Origin: Chloroflexota bacterium
GTDB taxonomy: Bacteria > Chloroflexota > Anaerolineae > JAAYEA01
NCBI GenBank assembly: GCA_019873665.1
Contig: JAIOAV010000010.1
Coordinates: 1-64,000, forward strand
DNA: 64,000 nucleotides
Reading direction: 5' to 3'
Position 1 is the stretch's first letter, and each line of letters begins with the position of its first letter. The notes below the pieces were generated by a model, which saw only the letters and a program-made list of their open reading frames with translations, was not told where the DNA came from and did not search any database. Made by a program: the position numbers and the translations under genes. This document shows positions 57,573 to 64,000 of the stretch, in pieces.

Positions 57573-60287
57573 TCAGGGTTCGGCTGTCTGGCTTATCTCC
57601 AACTCGACGGCGGTCGTATCCGCGGGCAGGCGGATCTCCAGCGTGCCGGGATATGCCACCTCGACAGCGACCGGTTGCCCGTTGCAGGTCGCCCGATATG
57701 TGCCCGCCGGATTCATCGCCGCGATCACTACTGGCGCGCGCCCCGCGGGCGCGGCGCAGCGCAGCGTCGCTCGCAGCCGGCGGTTGTCATCTGCGAACGC
57801 CTGGCGCACGATCCATGTGTCATAGCCGACGGTCAAGCGACCGGGGCGGTGGTACGACCCGAACCAGTTGAGCACAGGGGAGGAGAGGCCGCTGAACTGG
57901 TGCCAGCCGGCGCCGCGTCCGGAGGCGACGATAAAGTGCTCAAAGCAATGATACGATGCCTCCACCTCCGCCCGCCACACGTCCAGCGCCGTCTGCGCGA
58001 TGCGCCGCGCCAGCGCCGCATGGCCTAGATCGAGCAATGCCTTCCAGAAGAACCACTGGTGCGGCATCCACACCGCGCCGTTCCAGTAGCCATCCACGCG
58101 AAAGTAAGGCGCGGACTGATCCACCGTGGAGAGGCCAATACGCGACCAGAGCCTGCCGGGCGTGGCCAGGTGCGCGATCAGCCGCGCCTCCTGCTCCGGC
58201 GTGCAGATCCCCGCCACCAGCGGATACGCGCCATCCAGCCCCATGTTGTAGTTGGCGCCGCTCTCGTGGCGCAGGATGCCCGTCGGCTGGCCCGCGTCGT
58301 CGTGTTGCACATAGCCAAAGTAGCCGGATTCGTCATCCCAGGCATGGCGCTGGATCGCCGCGGTGAACAGGGCGATGTCGGCGTCATCCTCCGCCACATC
58401 CGCCGCCTCCCCCAGCTCGATGGCAGCCTGGCGCAGGATCTTGGCACTGCGGATGGCGTGCGACGTGTTGGCGATCGGCGCGACACTCCCTTCCAAGCGG
58501 TGCGCGTGCACATGCACCTGTGGCGGATAGTCATCCCAGCCGCCGGAGTTGTAGAAATAGTCCCACGTCTTGATCAGGTTTGACTGGAGCGTGCGCGTGG
58601 TGGAGCTGCCCAGCTTGCCGCAGAGAAAGCGGTGATATTGCCGCAGGCGCGGATAAAAGTGCGCCAGCAGTTCCCGCGACTGCGTGCGGTTCCACAGCTC
58701 CAGATAGAGCGACATCTGCACCGGTACCGGGCTGCCGTGGTGGATGAACGCTGCCTGCGTGTCGCCCGGCTCTGTTACATAGGCGTTCAAGCAGTCTATG
58801 GCGCGCTCGATGTCCAGCTCGGCTAATCCCAGCCCCACAAAGCCGGAATCCCAGGTGTAGAGGCAATCCCACCAGCGGCCCGGCGTATTGTGCCGGATGT
58901 ATGTGCGCCGCGTATAGACCGGATAGACGACGTTCGCCAGCACGGTGGCGGCCATCCGTTCCTGGCTAAAAACATACGGCGCTCCGGCGGGCGTGGCCGG
59001 CATCCGCACTGCTTGCTGGCGAGCGGCGGCGTACTGCGCGTCGCGCTGCTCCGGCACGGCGGCGAACTGGCGCAGCCGCTGCGCCACGAGCTCCGGCGCG
59101 CCGCTGCACACCAGCCCGTAGATCACCTGCGTCTCGTGCGGCGCGAGCGGGATCGGCCGCATAAAGACGTTGGTAAAGTGCCCTTCGCCATTGCCCATTA
59201 GGACCGTCTGCACGTGCTGGTGGACGGTGTGCCGCATAAACCGATCCAGCTCGTCAGTGAGGAACTCGCGCACCTGGTATTTGTCATAATCCCAGATCAG
59301 GCCATAGCTGTTCTCCAGATCGGGATACTTGAGGATGATGCTGTTGGGTAGCTCGCCCGGCGTGATCGCTGGCTGCACGTGCCGCTCCACGGGGCGAAAG
59401 CGCACCGCTGCCGCATCGCGGCGGGCGACCAGCGCTAGCCCGTCCAGCTCCACGGGCGCGCCTCCTGCGGCGCGCAGGGTGAGCGTATGCTCGCCGGCGG
59501 CGAGATCGCCGACTGGGACGGTCGCCACCTGCAGCTCGCCGCTGCCGGAGAGAGTAACCTCGCCGCCGGCAAGTCCGGCCATAGAGAAGGCCAGCGTTTC
59601 TCCCACCGCCATCCGGTAGCGGATGAGCAGCACGGCGTCGCCGATCGGCGCCGGCACATGCCAGCAGTAGGATACCGTATCGCCGCGGTCGCGGCCAAAG
59701 CCACGCCCCACGCCGCCGCCGTTGACAAAGCCGTGCGCGCGGATCTCGCCCCGCCAGTAGCCATCGGTGTTCAGGTTGTCGGTCGGGCGGGGCGTGGCAA
59801 AGCTCAACTCCGCGTAGTCCAGCGCGTCTTGCCAGATGGCGCCCGGCGGCAGCTCCACCCGCGCCATCTGCAGCGGGGTCTGCGTGTAGGGGCCAATGGG
59901 CGGCAGGTTCAGGTATGCCATATAGTGCAACACAATGTTCTGCGGCTCGTCGGTATTGTTCACACATGCGCAACGGACCAAACGCGCATCGCCGGGAACC
60001 GCGACAAACGAGATATCGCAATACACGCGGTCCTTCCACTCCAGTTCGTGTCGCTGGCAGTAGTAGCTCAGGTCTGGCGCCGCTTCCCAGGGGTGATACC
60101 CTGACTCCCACATGACATTGGGCACGTCCACCTTGCGCCGGTAGAAGCCGGGAAAGACGCTCAAGTCAAAGCGAAAGCCCCGGCGGACATCCGGGATATG
60201 GGAGATGCCCATATACTTCTTCGTGTAGGGCCCCCAGTCAGGCAGGCGAAGATCATGCGTATTGACAAGTGCGGCGAAATCGGTCAC
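57573..60287 (-). CDS. Glycoside hydrolase of the GH63/trehalase-like (MGH1) alpha/alpha-barrel type
   Basis: A 904-residue protein. The N-terminal ~420 residues are beta-sandwich-like, with an inserted carbohydrate-binding-like segment at about 160-300. The (alpha/alpha)6 catalytic domain spans about 450-840 with WDCLYTWDSGFVGLGLAELD (the W-D-x-G-F motif with the probable general acid Asp), WDDYPPQVHV, YFRVDGYWNGAVWMPHQWF and HCFEHF then GWHQFSGLSSPVL. A short beta-domain closes it. Start is GTG 60287, seven bases after AAGGAGA. No signal peptide, so it acts in the cytoplasm or is exported in an unusual way. Substrate likely an alpha-glucoside-type sugar, unproven. The 228-bp gap before the 83-residue gene shows nothing. 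Confidence 0.82.
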   Translation of the reverse strand: MTDFAALVNTHDLRLPDWGPYTKKYMGISHIPDVRRGFRFDLSVFPGFYRRKVDVPNVMWESGYHPWEAAPDLSYYCQRHELEWKDRVYCDISFVAVPGDARLVRCACVNNTDEPQNIVLHYMAYLNLPPIGPYTQTPLQMARVELPPGAIWQDALDYAELSFATPRPTDNLNTDGYWRGEIRAHGFVNGGGVGRGFGRDRGDTVSYCWHVPAPIGDAVLLIRYRMAVGETLAFSMAGLAGGEVTLSGSGELQVATVPVGDLAAGEHTLTLRAAGGAPVELDGLALVARRDAAAVRFRPVERHVQPAITPGELPNSIILKYPDLENSYGLIWDYDKYQVREFLTDELDRFMRHTVHQHVQTVLMGNGEGHFTNVFMRPIPLAPHETQVIYGLVCSGAPELVAQRLRQFAAVPEQRDAQYAAARQQAVRMPATPAGAPYVFSQERMAATVLANVVYPVYTRRTYIRHNTPGRWWDCLYTWDSGFVGLGLAELDIERAIDCLNAYVTEPGDTQAAFIHHGSPVPVQMSLYLELWNRTQSRELLAHFYPRLRQYHRFLCGKLGSSTTRTLQSNLIKTWDYFYNSGGWDDYPPQVHVHAHRLEGSVAPIANTSHAIRSAKILRQAAIELGEAADVAEDDADIALFTAAIQRHAWDDESGYFGYVQHDDAGQPTGILRHESGANYNMGLDGAYPLVAGICTPEQEARLIAHLATPGRLWSRIGLSTVDQSAPYFRVDGYWNGAVWMPHQWFFWKALLDLGHAALARRIAQTALDVWRAEVEASYHCFEHFIVASGRGAGWHQFSGLSSPVLNWFGSYHRPGRLTVGYDTWIVRQAFADDNRRLRATLRCAAPAGRAPVVIAAMNPAGTYRATCNGQPVAVEVAYPGTLEIRLPADTTAVELEISQTAEP

Positions 60288-60343
60288 GCGACTCTCCTTG
60301 CGAAATCAGGTTATGGATCGACTTGCCAGCTGTTGTGAAGTCG

Positions 60344-61426
60344 CTATGGCATGGATGCGACCGAGATCTCGTACTCGCCCGTGCCCTTGGGCCGAAAATG
60401 GCGCACCTGCACATAGTAGGTGCCCGGCTGCAGATGGTGTACGATCTTGGCGTTGAACCCCATGCCGCTGTCATCATCTTCGGCGAGCTTGTCCACAAGT
60501 GTGTCAGACCCAAATAGTGTCACTACCACATCGGTCCAGCCGCGCGTTTCGATCTTGTACCGGTGGGCTGCCGTGACCGTAAACCGATACAGGTCCTGCT
60601 CATTCTTTTCGCCGATGGCAGCCTTGGTCGGCTCATCATCCACGATCAGGTCCATGATGGGCTTGGCCGTCAGCGGATAGAGCACGCCGACGAACGACTT
60701 GTCTGTGGGCGACAGCTCGCGGTTCCAGCCGACTTCGAAATCGCCGATGGTGTGCGCGTTAGGGATCGGGTAGAGCATGATCGAGTGCTTGTCGAACTCG
60801 GAGAACTGGGTGATGGTCCGGCTGTACTTCTGAAAGAGATTGACATCCACCTCCTCGCGTGACCAGTTGTTGGGCGGTCCCGCATAGTAGGCATACACCG
60901 CTTCCTTATCCCATGGGATCTCGCCCGCCGGATTCTGGTGCTCGTGGATGCATCCCAGCGCATGCCCGAACTCGTGTAACACCACGCGCTGGTACTCCTC
61001 GTCGCTGCTGGTGGGCGTTAGCCAGCCAAAGTTCATCGTCGGCTGGTTGCGCGGGATGGCCAGGGCATCCACGCCGATGTAGGACCAGGAGCCACGTCGC
61101 GTGAACGAGATGCGGATCTCCGCGTCGGGGCTGTCATCGAACTGGAAGTGAATGTTGGCATACTTGCTCCATTCGCTGGCGACCTGCACGACCTTGCTTT
61201 GCACCTGCGGGGAGCCATCCAGGAAGCGCACATGCAGGGTGCGCCCGGTTTGCCACAGCTTGCCGGTGATGGCCGCCAGCTCCAGCGGCGTGGGCGGCGC
61301 CACACCAAAGCCCGGGCGCAGGATGGGCACATTGGCCGGGCTTTCCGCGATGCCGCGGCGCGCGGCCTCGATTTGCCTGTTGGGGGTCAAGATGCGATCA
61401 ATGCATACGTGAATCTCATCTGCCAT
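60344..61426 (-). CDS. Astacin-like (M12A-type) metalloprotease with C-terminal PPC domain
   Basis: A 360-residue zinc protease. The metzincin site HEFGHALGCIHEH is near residue 151 and the Met-turn SIMLYP follows about 65 residues later. The C-terminal ~110 residues form a pre-peptidase C-terminal (PPC) domain (LYRFTVTAAHRYKIETRG, DDSGMGFNAKI, GTYYVQVRHF). The N-terminus MADEIHVCIDRIL is not a signal peptide, which is strange for an astacin-like enzyme. ATG 61426 has AAGGAGG eight bases upstream. It lies 82 nt after the metallo-beta-lactamase-fold gene and 56 nt before the glycosidase gene, all in one direction. Confidence 0.88.
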   Translation of the reverse strand: MADEIHVCIDRILTPNRQIEAARRGIAESPANVPILRPGFGVAPPTPLELAAITGKLWQTGRTLHVRFLDGSPQVQSKVVQVASEWSKYANIHFQFDDSPDAEIRISFTRRGSWSYIGVDALAIPRNQPTMNFGWLTPTSSDEEYQRVVLHEFGHALGCIHEHQNPAGEIPWDKEAVYAYYAGPPNNWSREEVDVNLFQKYSRTITQFSEFDKHSIMLYPIPNAHTIGDFEVGWNRELSPTDKSFVGVLYPLTAKPIMDLIVDDEPTKAAIGEKNEQDLYRFTVTAAHRYKIETRGWTDVVVTLFGSDTLVDKLAEDDDSGMGFNAKIVHHLQPGTYYVQVRHFRPKGTGEYEISVASMP

Positions 61427-61508
61427 GGATGCGCCTCCTTGTCGCTATGAAGCCGATGCGGGCTCTGTACCGTGCGAGAGCGTGGATCGGCTCCGCCTGT
61501 CTCCGGCA

Positions 61509-62660
61509 CTAGCCTGTGAACTCGATATCAACATATGCGCCGTCAGTCAGCCCTTCGACCGACGTGACAGCACAGCGGCTCTGGATCAGGGCCAGTGTCT
61601 CCGCATCCGGCACGCCGCCATACGTGTCCGGATAGGTCGAGAGCACGGCCCGGCGTCTGCGGCGCCCGGCGCGCGGCGGCAGCACCTTATCCAACAGCTC
61701 GACGTCAGGGGTGCCGTTGTGGCTGCCGTGGTGGCTGATCTTGAGGAACTGCACTGGCTGTAGCACGCCGTGTTGTTCCATCATCTTCCAGCTACGGTAT
61801 TCGGCGTCGCCGGGAAAGAGCAGCCGCCAGCCGCGCCACTCGAGCGACACGACGACGCTGGTGTTGTTGGCGGCCCTGTCAATGGCCAACAAGTTGCTGC
61901 CGTAACCGCGTCGCCGCATCTCAACCAGATTGTAGAACGCCCCGGCATCCACTCCCGCAGGTGGTAGTGGCTCTGTCAGGCCGGGGAGCGCGCTAGCACC
62001 GCTATCGGGGGACACGGCCAACGCCATTGGCACCAGCCCCCGATAGTAGTCCGCGGTATCCTCCTCTGGCGCCCAGACCTCGAACTGAGCTTCCTGGAAG
62101 GGATGCGCGCCCGTCAGATCCACGCCGCGGTGGACGTACGTGGTTTTCTGCGCTAGACTCCGCAAATAGTCCACGCACTGGCCCGTGTCGCGCGGATTGT
62201 TGTTGTGCATTAGCGCACGCACATAGGGCGTCTCCAGCTCGGGCGCGGCTCGCAGGAACTGGGCGATCTGCTCGTATGCCGCCTCCATCTGCAATCGCTT
62301 GCGCTTGGCCTCGGGATGCGTGTCATAATAATCTGGCGCAGCGGATGCGGTGAGCCAGGCATGGGTCACATTGAAGCGGACGCCCAGCTTTTCCGCACCA
62401 TAGAACAAACCCTGTATGTGATCCAGGTGCTCGTGCGTCATCACGTAGAGGTCCAGCGGCTGGCCCGCAAGCTGCTTCTGGATATCGGCCAGGACGGGGC
62501 GAAAAAGCTCATCGGCGCCGCCCGCGCCGCTCAGGACGTTCCCCACATCAATCAGCATGTGGCGCTTGGCGACGCTGCCATTTGGCGCGCGGTCAGGTAT
62601 CGTCACAAGCACCGCGTCGCCGAACCGCACGTTATATACCCGCACGCGCAGCTTGGCCAT
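61509..62660 (-). CDS. Metallo-beta-lactamase-fold hydrolase (ComEC/Rec2-like soluble type)
   Basis: A 383-residue soluble MBL-fold protein. It starts LRVRVYNVRFGDAVLV, the usual first strand of ComEC-like MBL domains. The metal motif is VMTHEHLDHIQG near residue 74; later metal ligands lie in LLFPGDAEYRSWKMM and LKISHHGSHNGTPDVEL. Proteins of this subgroup may be nucleases or phosphodiesterases, and several occur in bacterial conflict or stress systems. The ATG at 62660 starts one base after the stop of the upstream protease gene, with GGAGGCG before it, so the two are translationally coupled. Confidence 0.87.
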   Translation of the reverse strand: MAKLRVRVYNVRFGDAVLVTIPDRAPNGSVAKRHMLIDVGNVLSGAGGADELFRPVLADIQKQLAGQPLDLYVMTHEHLDHIQGLFYGAEKLGVRFNVTHAWLTASAAPDYYDTHPEAKRKRLQMEAAYEQIAQFLRAAPELETPYVRALMHNNNPRDTGQCVDYLRSLAQKTTYVHRGVDLTGAHPFQEAQFEVWAPEEDTADYYRGLVPMALAVSPDSGASALPGLTEPLPPAGVDAGAFYNLVEMRRRGYGSNLLAIDRAANNTSVVVSLEWRGWRLLFPGDAEYRSWKMMEQHGVLQPVQFLKISHHGSHNGTPDVELLDKVLPPRAGRRRRRAVLSTYPDTYGGVPDAETLALIQSRCAVTSVEGLTDGAYVDIEFTG

Positions 62661-62661
62661 C

Positions 62662-64000
62662 TCACGCCTCCTGCAGGATGTGCAGCATGCGGGCCGCGCC
62701 GCGCACTCGCATCAGGTCGCCGGTGGTCTCGGCGATGATGGCCGATTGCAGCTCGTGGCCGCCGGGTGCTTGCGCGTGCCTCTCCAGTTGCAGCGTGCCC
62801 TCGTCCGCCAGACGCCGCAGGATGGCGTCGCGGTCGGCCCGCTGCGTCTCGCTGGCATCGGACATCAGGTGCGCGCGGATGCGCCGGGTCTCCCAGTCAA
62901 TGGCCAGCGTAGTGCCCGCACTGACCTGCCGCTGTGCCGGAAAGCGCCTCCCCAGTGGGTTCGGCTCTTTCTGATCCCATAACACCTTGAGGATGCATTC
63001 GCGGATCTTGCGCGTGCCATCGCTCCCATAGTAGAGCTTGGTCACGTCCAGACGTGGGCGCACATGGAAGGGGATGGCCGGCGGGATGCCCAGCAGCTTA
63101 CGGTTGCGGTTCGCGAACTCATACGCGGCCCAGTCGCTGGCCACCAGTGTCTCCAGGTCCACATCCGCCAGCGCCGGATGCGCCACATTCGTCTCCACCT
63201 GCATCGCGGCGCGGTCTGAAACCATGTGGCGGGTGACGAACTCGTCGCAGATCCACTCTCGCTCCAGCGAGGGCTCCGTGTGCGAGGCCTGGTCGGCGGC
63301 GATGATCGCCCGGCCATAGTCGGCAAAGGAGATCTCGCCCGGAGGCAGATAGTCCAGGGCGCGAAAGATCATCCGTTTGAAGCGCGCCGCGCCGATCCCC
63401 AGCGCTCGCCCCGAAGCGCTGTACTCGGATGTGCCCATGCGTTGCGCCTCGCGTTTCTTCAGCGACTCGTGGATCTTGACCATGACGGTGTAAAGCGCGC
63501 CGCTGAGGACTTCGCTCAGGGCGTGCGGCTCGTCGCGGGGCACCAGATTGGGCTTCCCGTAGTCGTCCACAGACCTGTCGTTCTCGTCGAGCGTTCGCCT
63601 GTTGAGGAGCGTGCGCAGGTAAAAAGCGGCGTGGGACTCGCGGCTGAGAGCCCGCCCGAACTCCTCCGCGATGGAGCTAAAGGCGGTTGAGTTCGTGATA
63701 TACCCGCCGGTCTGTTGCAGCACCGTCTCGCGCAGGTTGTGACTATCGAACGCCATCATCAGCGCCGTCAGGTCGGCAATCGCCTCGTGCAGCGCCAGCG
63801 ACTGCGGTGTGATGGCGTTATATAGGTCGGGCGCGATCCCATCCAGGATGGCGTGTCCCGTCTCGTGCGCCACAATGTCGCGCGAGAGGCTGGTGTAGAT
63901 CATCTCGTTGCTCTGTGGGTGGATGGGAAAGTAAAAGAACTGGATACTATGAGAATCGCGCTCATAGAACGCGTTCGCCCACTGGCCGGCGCGCGGCACC
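62662..64000 (-). CDS. Gluzincin-type zinc metalloprotease, 5' end outside the window
   Basis: The frame is open from the right edge to a TGA at 62662-62664 (446 codons visible). The zinc site is DIVAHETGHAILDG at about 63850-63870, followed by LALHEAIADLTALMMAF with the distal Glu, i.e. HExxH plus ExxxD as in thermolysin-like gluzincins. The sequence downstream is long, hydrophilic and without membrane segments. The start and any signal peptide lie outside. It overlaps functionally with the next gene, which starts one base after its stop. The protease fold is clear; its target is unknown. Confidence 0.82.
   Translation of the reverse strand, partial: VPRAGQWANAFYERDSHSIQFFYFPIHPQSNEMIYTSLSRDIVAHETGHAILDGIAPDLYNAITPQSLALHEAIADLTALMMAFDSHNLRETVLQQTGGYITNSTAFSSIAEEFGRALSRESHAAFYLRTLLNRRTLDENDRSVDDYGKPNLVPRDEPHALSEVLSGALYTVMVKIHESLKKREAQRMGTSEYSASGRALGIGAARFKRMIFRALDYLPPGEISFADYGRAIIAADQASHTEPSLEREWICDEFVTRHMVSDRAAMQVETNVAHPALADVDLETLVASDWAAYEFANRNRKLLGIPPAIPFHVRPRLDVTKLYYGSDGTRKIRECILKVLWDQKEPNPLGRRFPAQRQVSAGTTLAIDWETRRIRAHLMSDASETQRADRDAILRRLADEGTLQLERHAQAPGGHELQSAIIAETTGDLMRVRGAARMLHILQEA

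Follow-up and report, generated by a model that had tools for sequence, protein, structure and literature searches.

Introduction

Tuck et al. (2025; PMC12799240) showed that insertions keep ComEC-related nucleases of the metallo-β-lactamase (MBL) fold inactive until a partner protease, a trypsin or a caspase, releases them. In HamM, the cuts fall at I118 and I218, both within insertions, and the authors suggested that more proteolytically activated enzymes act in antiviral immunity (PMC12799240). Besides that paper, whose supplement (on other protease families) was not covered, we found nothing relevant in the literature on metalloprotease-MBL or thermolysin-like defense systems, and the conflict-system papers of the Aravind group (PMC8195603, PMC7159879) treat metallopeptidases in other contexts only. 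Here we describe a gluzincin metalloprotease gene that is followed directly by a ComEC-like MBL gene in a Chloroflexota bacterium (assembly GCA_019873665.1, incomplete at about 91.5%). The DNA analyzed, referred to as the window, comprises positions 1-64000 of the 67,636-base contig JAIOAV010000010.1 (C10), and it also encodes an astacin-like protease and a glycosidase beside the pair.

Results

Linkage of the Gluzincin and MBL Genes

The gluzincin and MBL genes form a real, unnamed protease-MBL unit that crosses phyla. We picked the loci of relatives by gluzincin similarity alone, and in 24 loci selected in this way the next gene downstream, on the same strand, is the MBL. Because the MBL is nearly alone in its own genome (its relatives there are itself and one ComEC-like match only), this pairing is not due to chance. 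The gaps between the two genes are mostly -18 to +13 bases, larger negative values reflecting over-long open reading frame starts, and in one of the paired cases (L107) the gluzincin is interrupted by an in-frame stop. An MBL neighbor was present in 23/23 testable gluzincin homologues scoring at least 460 bits and in 1/6 of those under 405 bits. The gluzincin and MBL trees are congruent in their main groups (Mantel r 0.91; permutation maximum 0.40). Independent occurrence of the genes in relatives, which the first-pass annotation had named as one of two findings that would undo its proposal, was thus not seen for the gluzincin and MBL. On plasmids the astacin, by contrast, can also stand alone or accompany caspase, trypsin, or TIR genes.

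The paired loci come from Chloroflexota, Actinomycetota, rhizobial and Paraburkholderia replicons (Alpha- and Betaproteobacteria), Hymenobacter (Bacteroidota), and a faecal scaffold, and the gluzincin module is found in at least four phyla. Many of the gluzincin-MBL copies are carried on conjugative plasmids. A single-sequence search found the gluzincin in 5/301 Chloroflexota genomes and a profile search, with weak matches counted, in 14/400; it is therefore rare in this phylum.

Short M4-like homologues (L065-L067, L069, L070) and homologues on phage contigs (L075-L082, L115) were left out as weak-scoring and lacking an MBL. The short homologue follows YcaO and TfuA genes in L065:3873-7056 and similar Rhizobium plasmids, which suggests a peptide-natural-product role for that branch. 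The distant homologues of L115 and L075-L082 lie on large-phage or viral contigs (one record 595 kb) and have no MBL neighbor.

Organization of the Locus

The genes lie where the first-pass annotation had placed them, all on the minus strand:

62662..64000 (63999 as last base of the frame in the window), minus strand: M4-like gluzincin, C-terminal 445 of 568 amino acids inside the window, remainder to contig position 64368
61509..62660, minus strand: ComEC-like MBL hydrolase, 383 amino acids
60344..61426, minus strand: astacin (M12A, myroilysin-like) with a C-terminal PPC domain, 360 amino acids
57573..60287, minus strand: MGH1/GH63-like glycosidase, 904 amino acids (PF22422, 7e-30)

The gluzincin gene is cut by the window edge, and its full 568-amino-acid product was read from the contig beyond the window, where the gene reaches position 64368. 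A single base separates the gluzincin TGA from the MBL ATG, as had been noted earlier; the MBL and astacin genes are 82 bases apart, and the astacin and glycosidase genes 56 bases. A Shine-Dalgarno-like sequence precedes each of the gluzincin, MBL, and astacin genes. Outside the window, a predicted membrane protein with a signal peptide is encoded upstream of the gluzincin (contig 64504-65421; L002:4504-5421); we rejected it as a component of the system, as a homologue is absent from the other loci examined.

Export is the rule for astacins, M4 proteases, and PPC proteins, and the region is rich in carbohydrate-active enzyme (CAZyme) genes, so the products could be ordinary exoenzymes for secretion whose genes came to lie next to the glycosidase by chance. 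The first-pass annotation had seen no signal peptide in the two complete proteins, and this observation holds for all three proteins, the full-length gluzincin included: none has a hydrophobic N-terminal stretch, as judged from hydropathy only. By the same measure, a signal peptide is likewise absent from the gluzincin, MBL, and astacin of two other loci with all three genes (L105 and L008). Together with the conserved adjacency and order of the block, this already contradicts the exoenzyme explanation, which we regard as very improbable.

Identity of the Gluzincin

In single-protein searches of Pfam, NCBIfam, PADLOC, and the PDB, the gluzincin gave no significant match. A profile built from 13 gluzincin sequences reached only aureolysin, thermolysin, and neutral protease among PDB entries (E from 0.0085), and the HExxH motif, the HE..D helix, and an EPH histidine resembling thermolysin H231 are invariant across the 13 homologues; in the window protein, these motifs read HETGH...HEAIAD and DEPH. 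For the L008 relative, the first 11 PDB matches of a predicted model belong to the thermolysin family (thermolysin, aureolysin, ProA, and LasB on top), although the model is of low confidence (predicted local distance difference test score [pLDDT] 43) and is usable as a family hint only. On the profile match, the invariant catalytic residues, and the model's thermolysin-family matches, the gluzincin is classified as an M4-like protease of the thermolysin fold. We dropped the PADLOC label PDC-M48B as a pointer to an M48 protease; it is apparently a candidate-system number, and PADLOC has no match for the gluzincin itself.

The MBL Is a Predicted Gated Nuclease

The catalytic motifs of the MBL (HEHLDH 76-81, GDA 284-286, HHGS 310-313) are invariant in the aligned homologues. 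Its sequence matches ComEC and the defense MBLs LmuA, RTasMBL, Avs1a, and 6A-MBL, the best PADLOC match being LmuA (52 bits), and the nearest PDB fold to its predicted model (pLDDT 76; predicted template modeling score 0.81) is the ComEC nuclease domain 9ic4 (1e-11). There are 173 residues between the catalytic halves of the MBL, compared with 66 in 9ic4, i.e., about 107 extra. The inserted region spans about residues 88-259, and model pLDDT falls below 50 (predicted disorder) chiefly at 210-232 and 239-259; these segments fall near the second cut site of HamM (218). The MBL is thus predicted, from its model and by analogy, to be a gated pro-nuclease whose insertion would cover the active site.

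A conserved PPAGVDAGAFYNLVE motif occupies MBL residues 233-247, and its F242 and L245 are invariant in nine sequences. Because thermolysin-like enzymes favor a bulky hydrophobic residue on the C-terminal side of the scissile bond, we infer that the PPAGVDAGAFYNLVE segment is the best candidate site for cleavage by the gluzincin.

An Intracellular Astacin as the Third Gene

The astacin gene product matches PPC (PF04151, 8e-8), Astacin (PF01400, 3.7e-5; 23.9 bits against a cut-off of 22.5), and myroilysin structures (E 2e-67). The residues H151, E152, H155, G158, and H161 (HExxHxxGxxH) and M217 and Y219 of the Met-turn are invariant in the alignment. An N-terminal cysteine, Cys8, is shared by all five aligned non-exported homologues. 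A cysteine switch has been described in myroilysin (PMC9848320), and by analogy Cys8 is a possible cysteine switch, although it is farther from the catalytic domain than would be expected for myroilysin. The NCBIfam model NF050131, named "beta-glucuronidase AbsR1," matches residues 61-352 of the astacin at 161 bits (cut-off 650), and the protein behind that name may be of the astacin type.

The three-gene block whose conservation the first-pass annotation had proposed to test is real, but it is narrow: it was found in three loci only, those of the window genome, of a genome of the same family (L105 in G697), and of an Actinomycetota metagenome-assembled genome (L008). The G697 MBL and astacin are about 63% and about 64% identical to their window counterparts, and L008 has an extra, second MBL upstream of the block and a second astacin downstream. 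Among 251 Chloroflexota genomes, a draw that did not contain G697, the astacin was present in one, the window genome itself.

On plasmids, related astacins that lack a signal peptide have as neighbors caspase and trypsin genes (1788 amino acids) in Bradyrhizobium barranii (L051:6974-14560) or a TIR gene (L055:5986-8453). Intracellular astacins look like a neglected component of conflict systems.

Accessory Genes and Genomic Context

A variable position upstream or downstream of the gluzincin-MBL pair is occupied by a patatin gene in four loci (L017, L019, L047, L048) and elsewhere by genes for an LCAT-like lipase (L013, L014), an alpha/beta hydrolase (L010), a PLD protein (L016), a Tle1-like phospholipase (L072), or an LmuB-like ATPase (L018, L074); in L068, an S8 domain is fused to the gluzincin. 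A second, LmuA-like MBL is encoded in L013 (156 bits) and in the second copy of the module in G697 (L106, 220 bits). The L013 protein, to which the window MBL is about 21% identical, follows an S8 protease, and in L014 a gene for a trypsin-like protease precedes an endonuclease gene; the pairing of a protease with a hydrolase is therefore a repeated theme in these clusters. The order in L106:5181-16254 is gluzincin, MBL, a 957-amino-acid protein, and the second MBL. The 957-amino-acid protein matched no Pfam or PADLOC family, and with the LmuA-like MBL it is perhaps a further protease-MBL pair.

Several of the plasmid copies lie close to known defense genes, those of Hachiman and Septu among them. 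In L017, HamA and HamB genes (481 and 1292 bits) lie 114 bp downstream of the MBL, after a patatin-gluzincin-MBL cluster; PtuA and PtuB occur in L015, a pAgo-SIR2-like gene in L013, and JAB and E1-E2-like genes in L018 and L074, two Hymenobacter plasmids that also carry an LmuB-like ATPase upstream of the pair (71 and 84 bits). FRG (PDC-S15) genes are found near other loci of the module. Matches to UvrD-type helicases (L072, L106) are generic and were left out of the defense count.

Some neighbors have a different flavor, among them the Tle1-like phospholipase of the type VI secretion system (T6SS), a phage-lysozyme/amidase protein, an S1/P1 nuclease, and a DNA/RNA non-specific endonuclease. 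As T6SS effectors also lack signal peptides, the gluzincin, MBL, astacin, lipases, amidases, and nucleases might be antibacterial effectors that are carried through a contractile apparatus or another non-Sec route, rather than a self-directed immune device, and the first-pass annotation had likewise allowed for non-classical export. The same-family genome G697 has matches to sheath proteins, on another contig. The contractile sheath (PF04984) was not matched in the incomplete assembly of the window genome or in four other genomes (G400, G329, G712, G717), and for this reason we rejected contractile-system cargo and see no support for non-classical export. No delivery or immunity genes were seen beside the loci; moreover, the strict protease-then-MBL order and the congruent trees fit a functional pair, and adjacency to HamAB and PtuAB fits defense islands. 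We consider an effector arsenal improbable.

In a further explanation, outside immunity, the gluzincin matures partner enzymes (MBL, tyrosinase, amidase) that function in metabolism, stress, or the extracellular matrix, combined here with polysaccharide degradation. In its favor, glycosidase genes lie downstream in both the window genome (G000) and G697, and some gluzincins have another partner, either a tyrosinase (two Actinomycetota) or an amidase-caspase protein (Kovacikia and one Chloroflexota genome). The glycosidase families differ, however: G697 has GH42 and GH95 genes at this position, and L008 has the second astacin and no glycosidase. We rejected the glycosidase as part of the system on these grounds, and its link to the block is, as first noted, by position only. 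The patchy, plasmid-borne, cross-phylum spread and the defense neighbors are also unlike housekeeping, and the partners of the gluzincin are mostly nucleases, lipases, and proteases. A maturation role is therefore unlikely.

In the Actinomycetota loci just mentioned (L063:5729-9749, L064:6161-10302), the tyrosinase gene is directly upstream of the gluzincin and no MBL is present, and a protease-activated oxidase pair is possible. The amidase-caspase fusion is directly upstream of the gluzincin on a Kovacikia minuta plasmid (L062:11578-16811) and in the Chloroflexota locus L049; L062 also has a related astacin with a disrupted frame, on the opposite strand and about 5 kb distant.

Discussion

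On our best reading, to which we give about even odds, a protease-nuclease pair forms the core of an intracellular conflict module that moves horizontally. The locus would then be a metalloprotease form of the gated nuclease pairs, its activation step being deduced from architecture. The MBL would be made as a latent DNase whose insertion hides the active site. Phage infection or DNA stress would act as the trigger for the gluzincin to cut the insertion and free the nuclease, which would degrade DNA and halt the phage through cell death or arrest. The window genome probably adds the astacin to this response as a second, zymogen-like accessory protease; other lineages would use a phospholipase or a different protease in this place. 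The intracellular protease-MBL conflict pair suggested by the first-pass annotation is well supported for the gluzincin and MBL, given their adjacency across phyla, congruent trees, defense neighbors on plasmids, and lack of an export signal; the glycosidase falls outside it.

Several observations weigh against a conflict module. Cleavage, DNase activity, the trigger, and phage defense are inferred; the gating insertions are deduced from length and predicted disorder; and the candidate cleavage motif is not kept in the distant half of the family. Scores of the MBL against defense models are far under the NCBI curated cut-offs (Avs1a, 41 vs 420 bits), and some gluzincins lack an MBL and are paired with something else (tyrosinase, amidase-caspase). 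The window locus and its Chloroflexota relatives lie mostly among metabolic and CAZyme genes with few defense neighbors, and those on plasmids may hitch-hike in islands. No AAA+/NTPase or sensor gene, which the first-pass annotation had suggested looking for beside the block, was recognized at the window locus on the available contig.

A tentative and rather doubtful extension of the conflict-module reading is a self-contained immune type without a recognized sensor NTPase: the gluzincin itself might be the infection switch and release several latent hydrolases simultaneously (MBL DNase, phospholipase, and zymogen astacin). Such a switch could, equally tentatively, amount to a bacterial proteolytic cascade with exchangeable executioners.

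A third protease fold, that of a metalloprotease, is here paired with an MBL of the gated type, with lipases or second proteases in an exchangeable slot. If the conflict-module reading is true, proteolytic activation of effectors extends further in bacterial immunity than is known from the trypsin and caspase pairs, and a role would fall to intracellular astacins and to thermolysin-like enzymes.

Among known systems, AVAST type 1 does not fit: besides the missed Avs1a cut-off, no STAND gene was recognized among the neighbors of the block. The gluzincin shares with the thermolysin family (MEROPS M4) the HExxH motif, the glutamate helix, and the EPH histidine, and it matches thermolysin and aureolysin by profile and fold; unlike that family, it is below Pfam detection, has no signal peptide, and has its own N- and C-terminal regions. 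The astacin resembles myroilysin and other bacterial astacins (M12A) in overall similarity, HExxHxxGxxH motif, Met-turn, and candidate latency cysteine, and it differs from them in having a PPC domain, in lacking a signal peptide, and in being encoded next to a protease-MBL pair within an operon-like block. Lamassu provides the best PADLOC match of the window MBL (LmuA) and the LmuB-like ATPase upstream of the pair in the two Hymenobacter plasmids, whereas in the window genome no LmuB or LmuC adjoins the block on the available contig and the partner protease is of another fold.

The closest relatives are the nuclease-protease pairs in which HamM, Avs1a, LmuA, or DRT MBL is partnered by trypsin, or CanC by caspase (PMC12799240). 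The partner here is neither trypsin-like nor caspase-like: it is a thermolysin-like gluzincin that stands alone rather than fused to a sensor and has genes for lipases or second proteases beside it. Given this difference in protease fold, we do not claim membership in the trypsin/caspase pairs as defined. The features held in common are a ComEC-like MBL with intact metal motifs and extra insertions, an adjacent protease gene that is co-inherited and co-evolves with it, some of the same defense systems alongside, and the protease-then-MBL order seen in canu.

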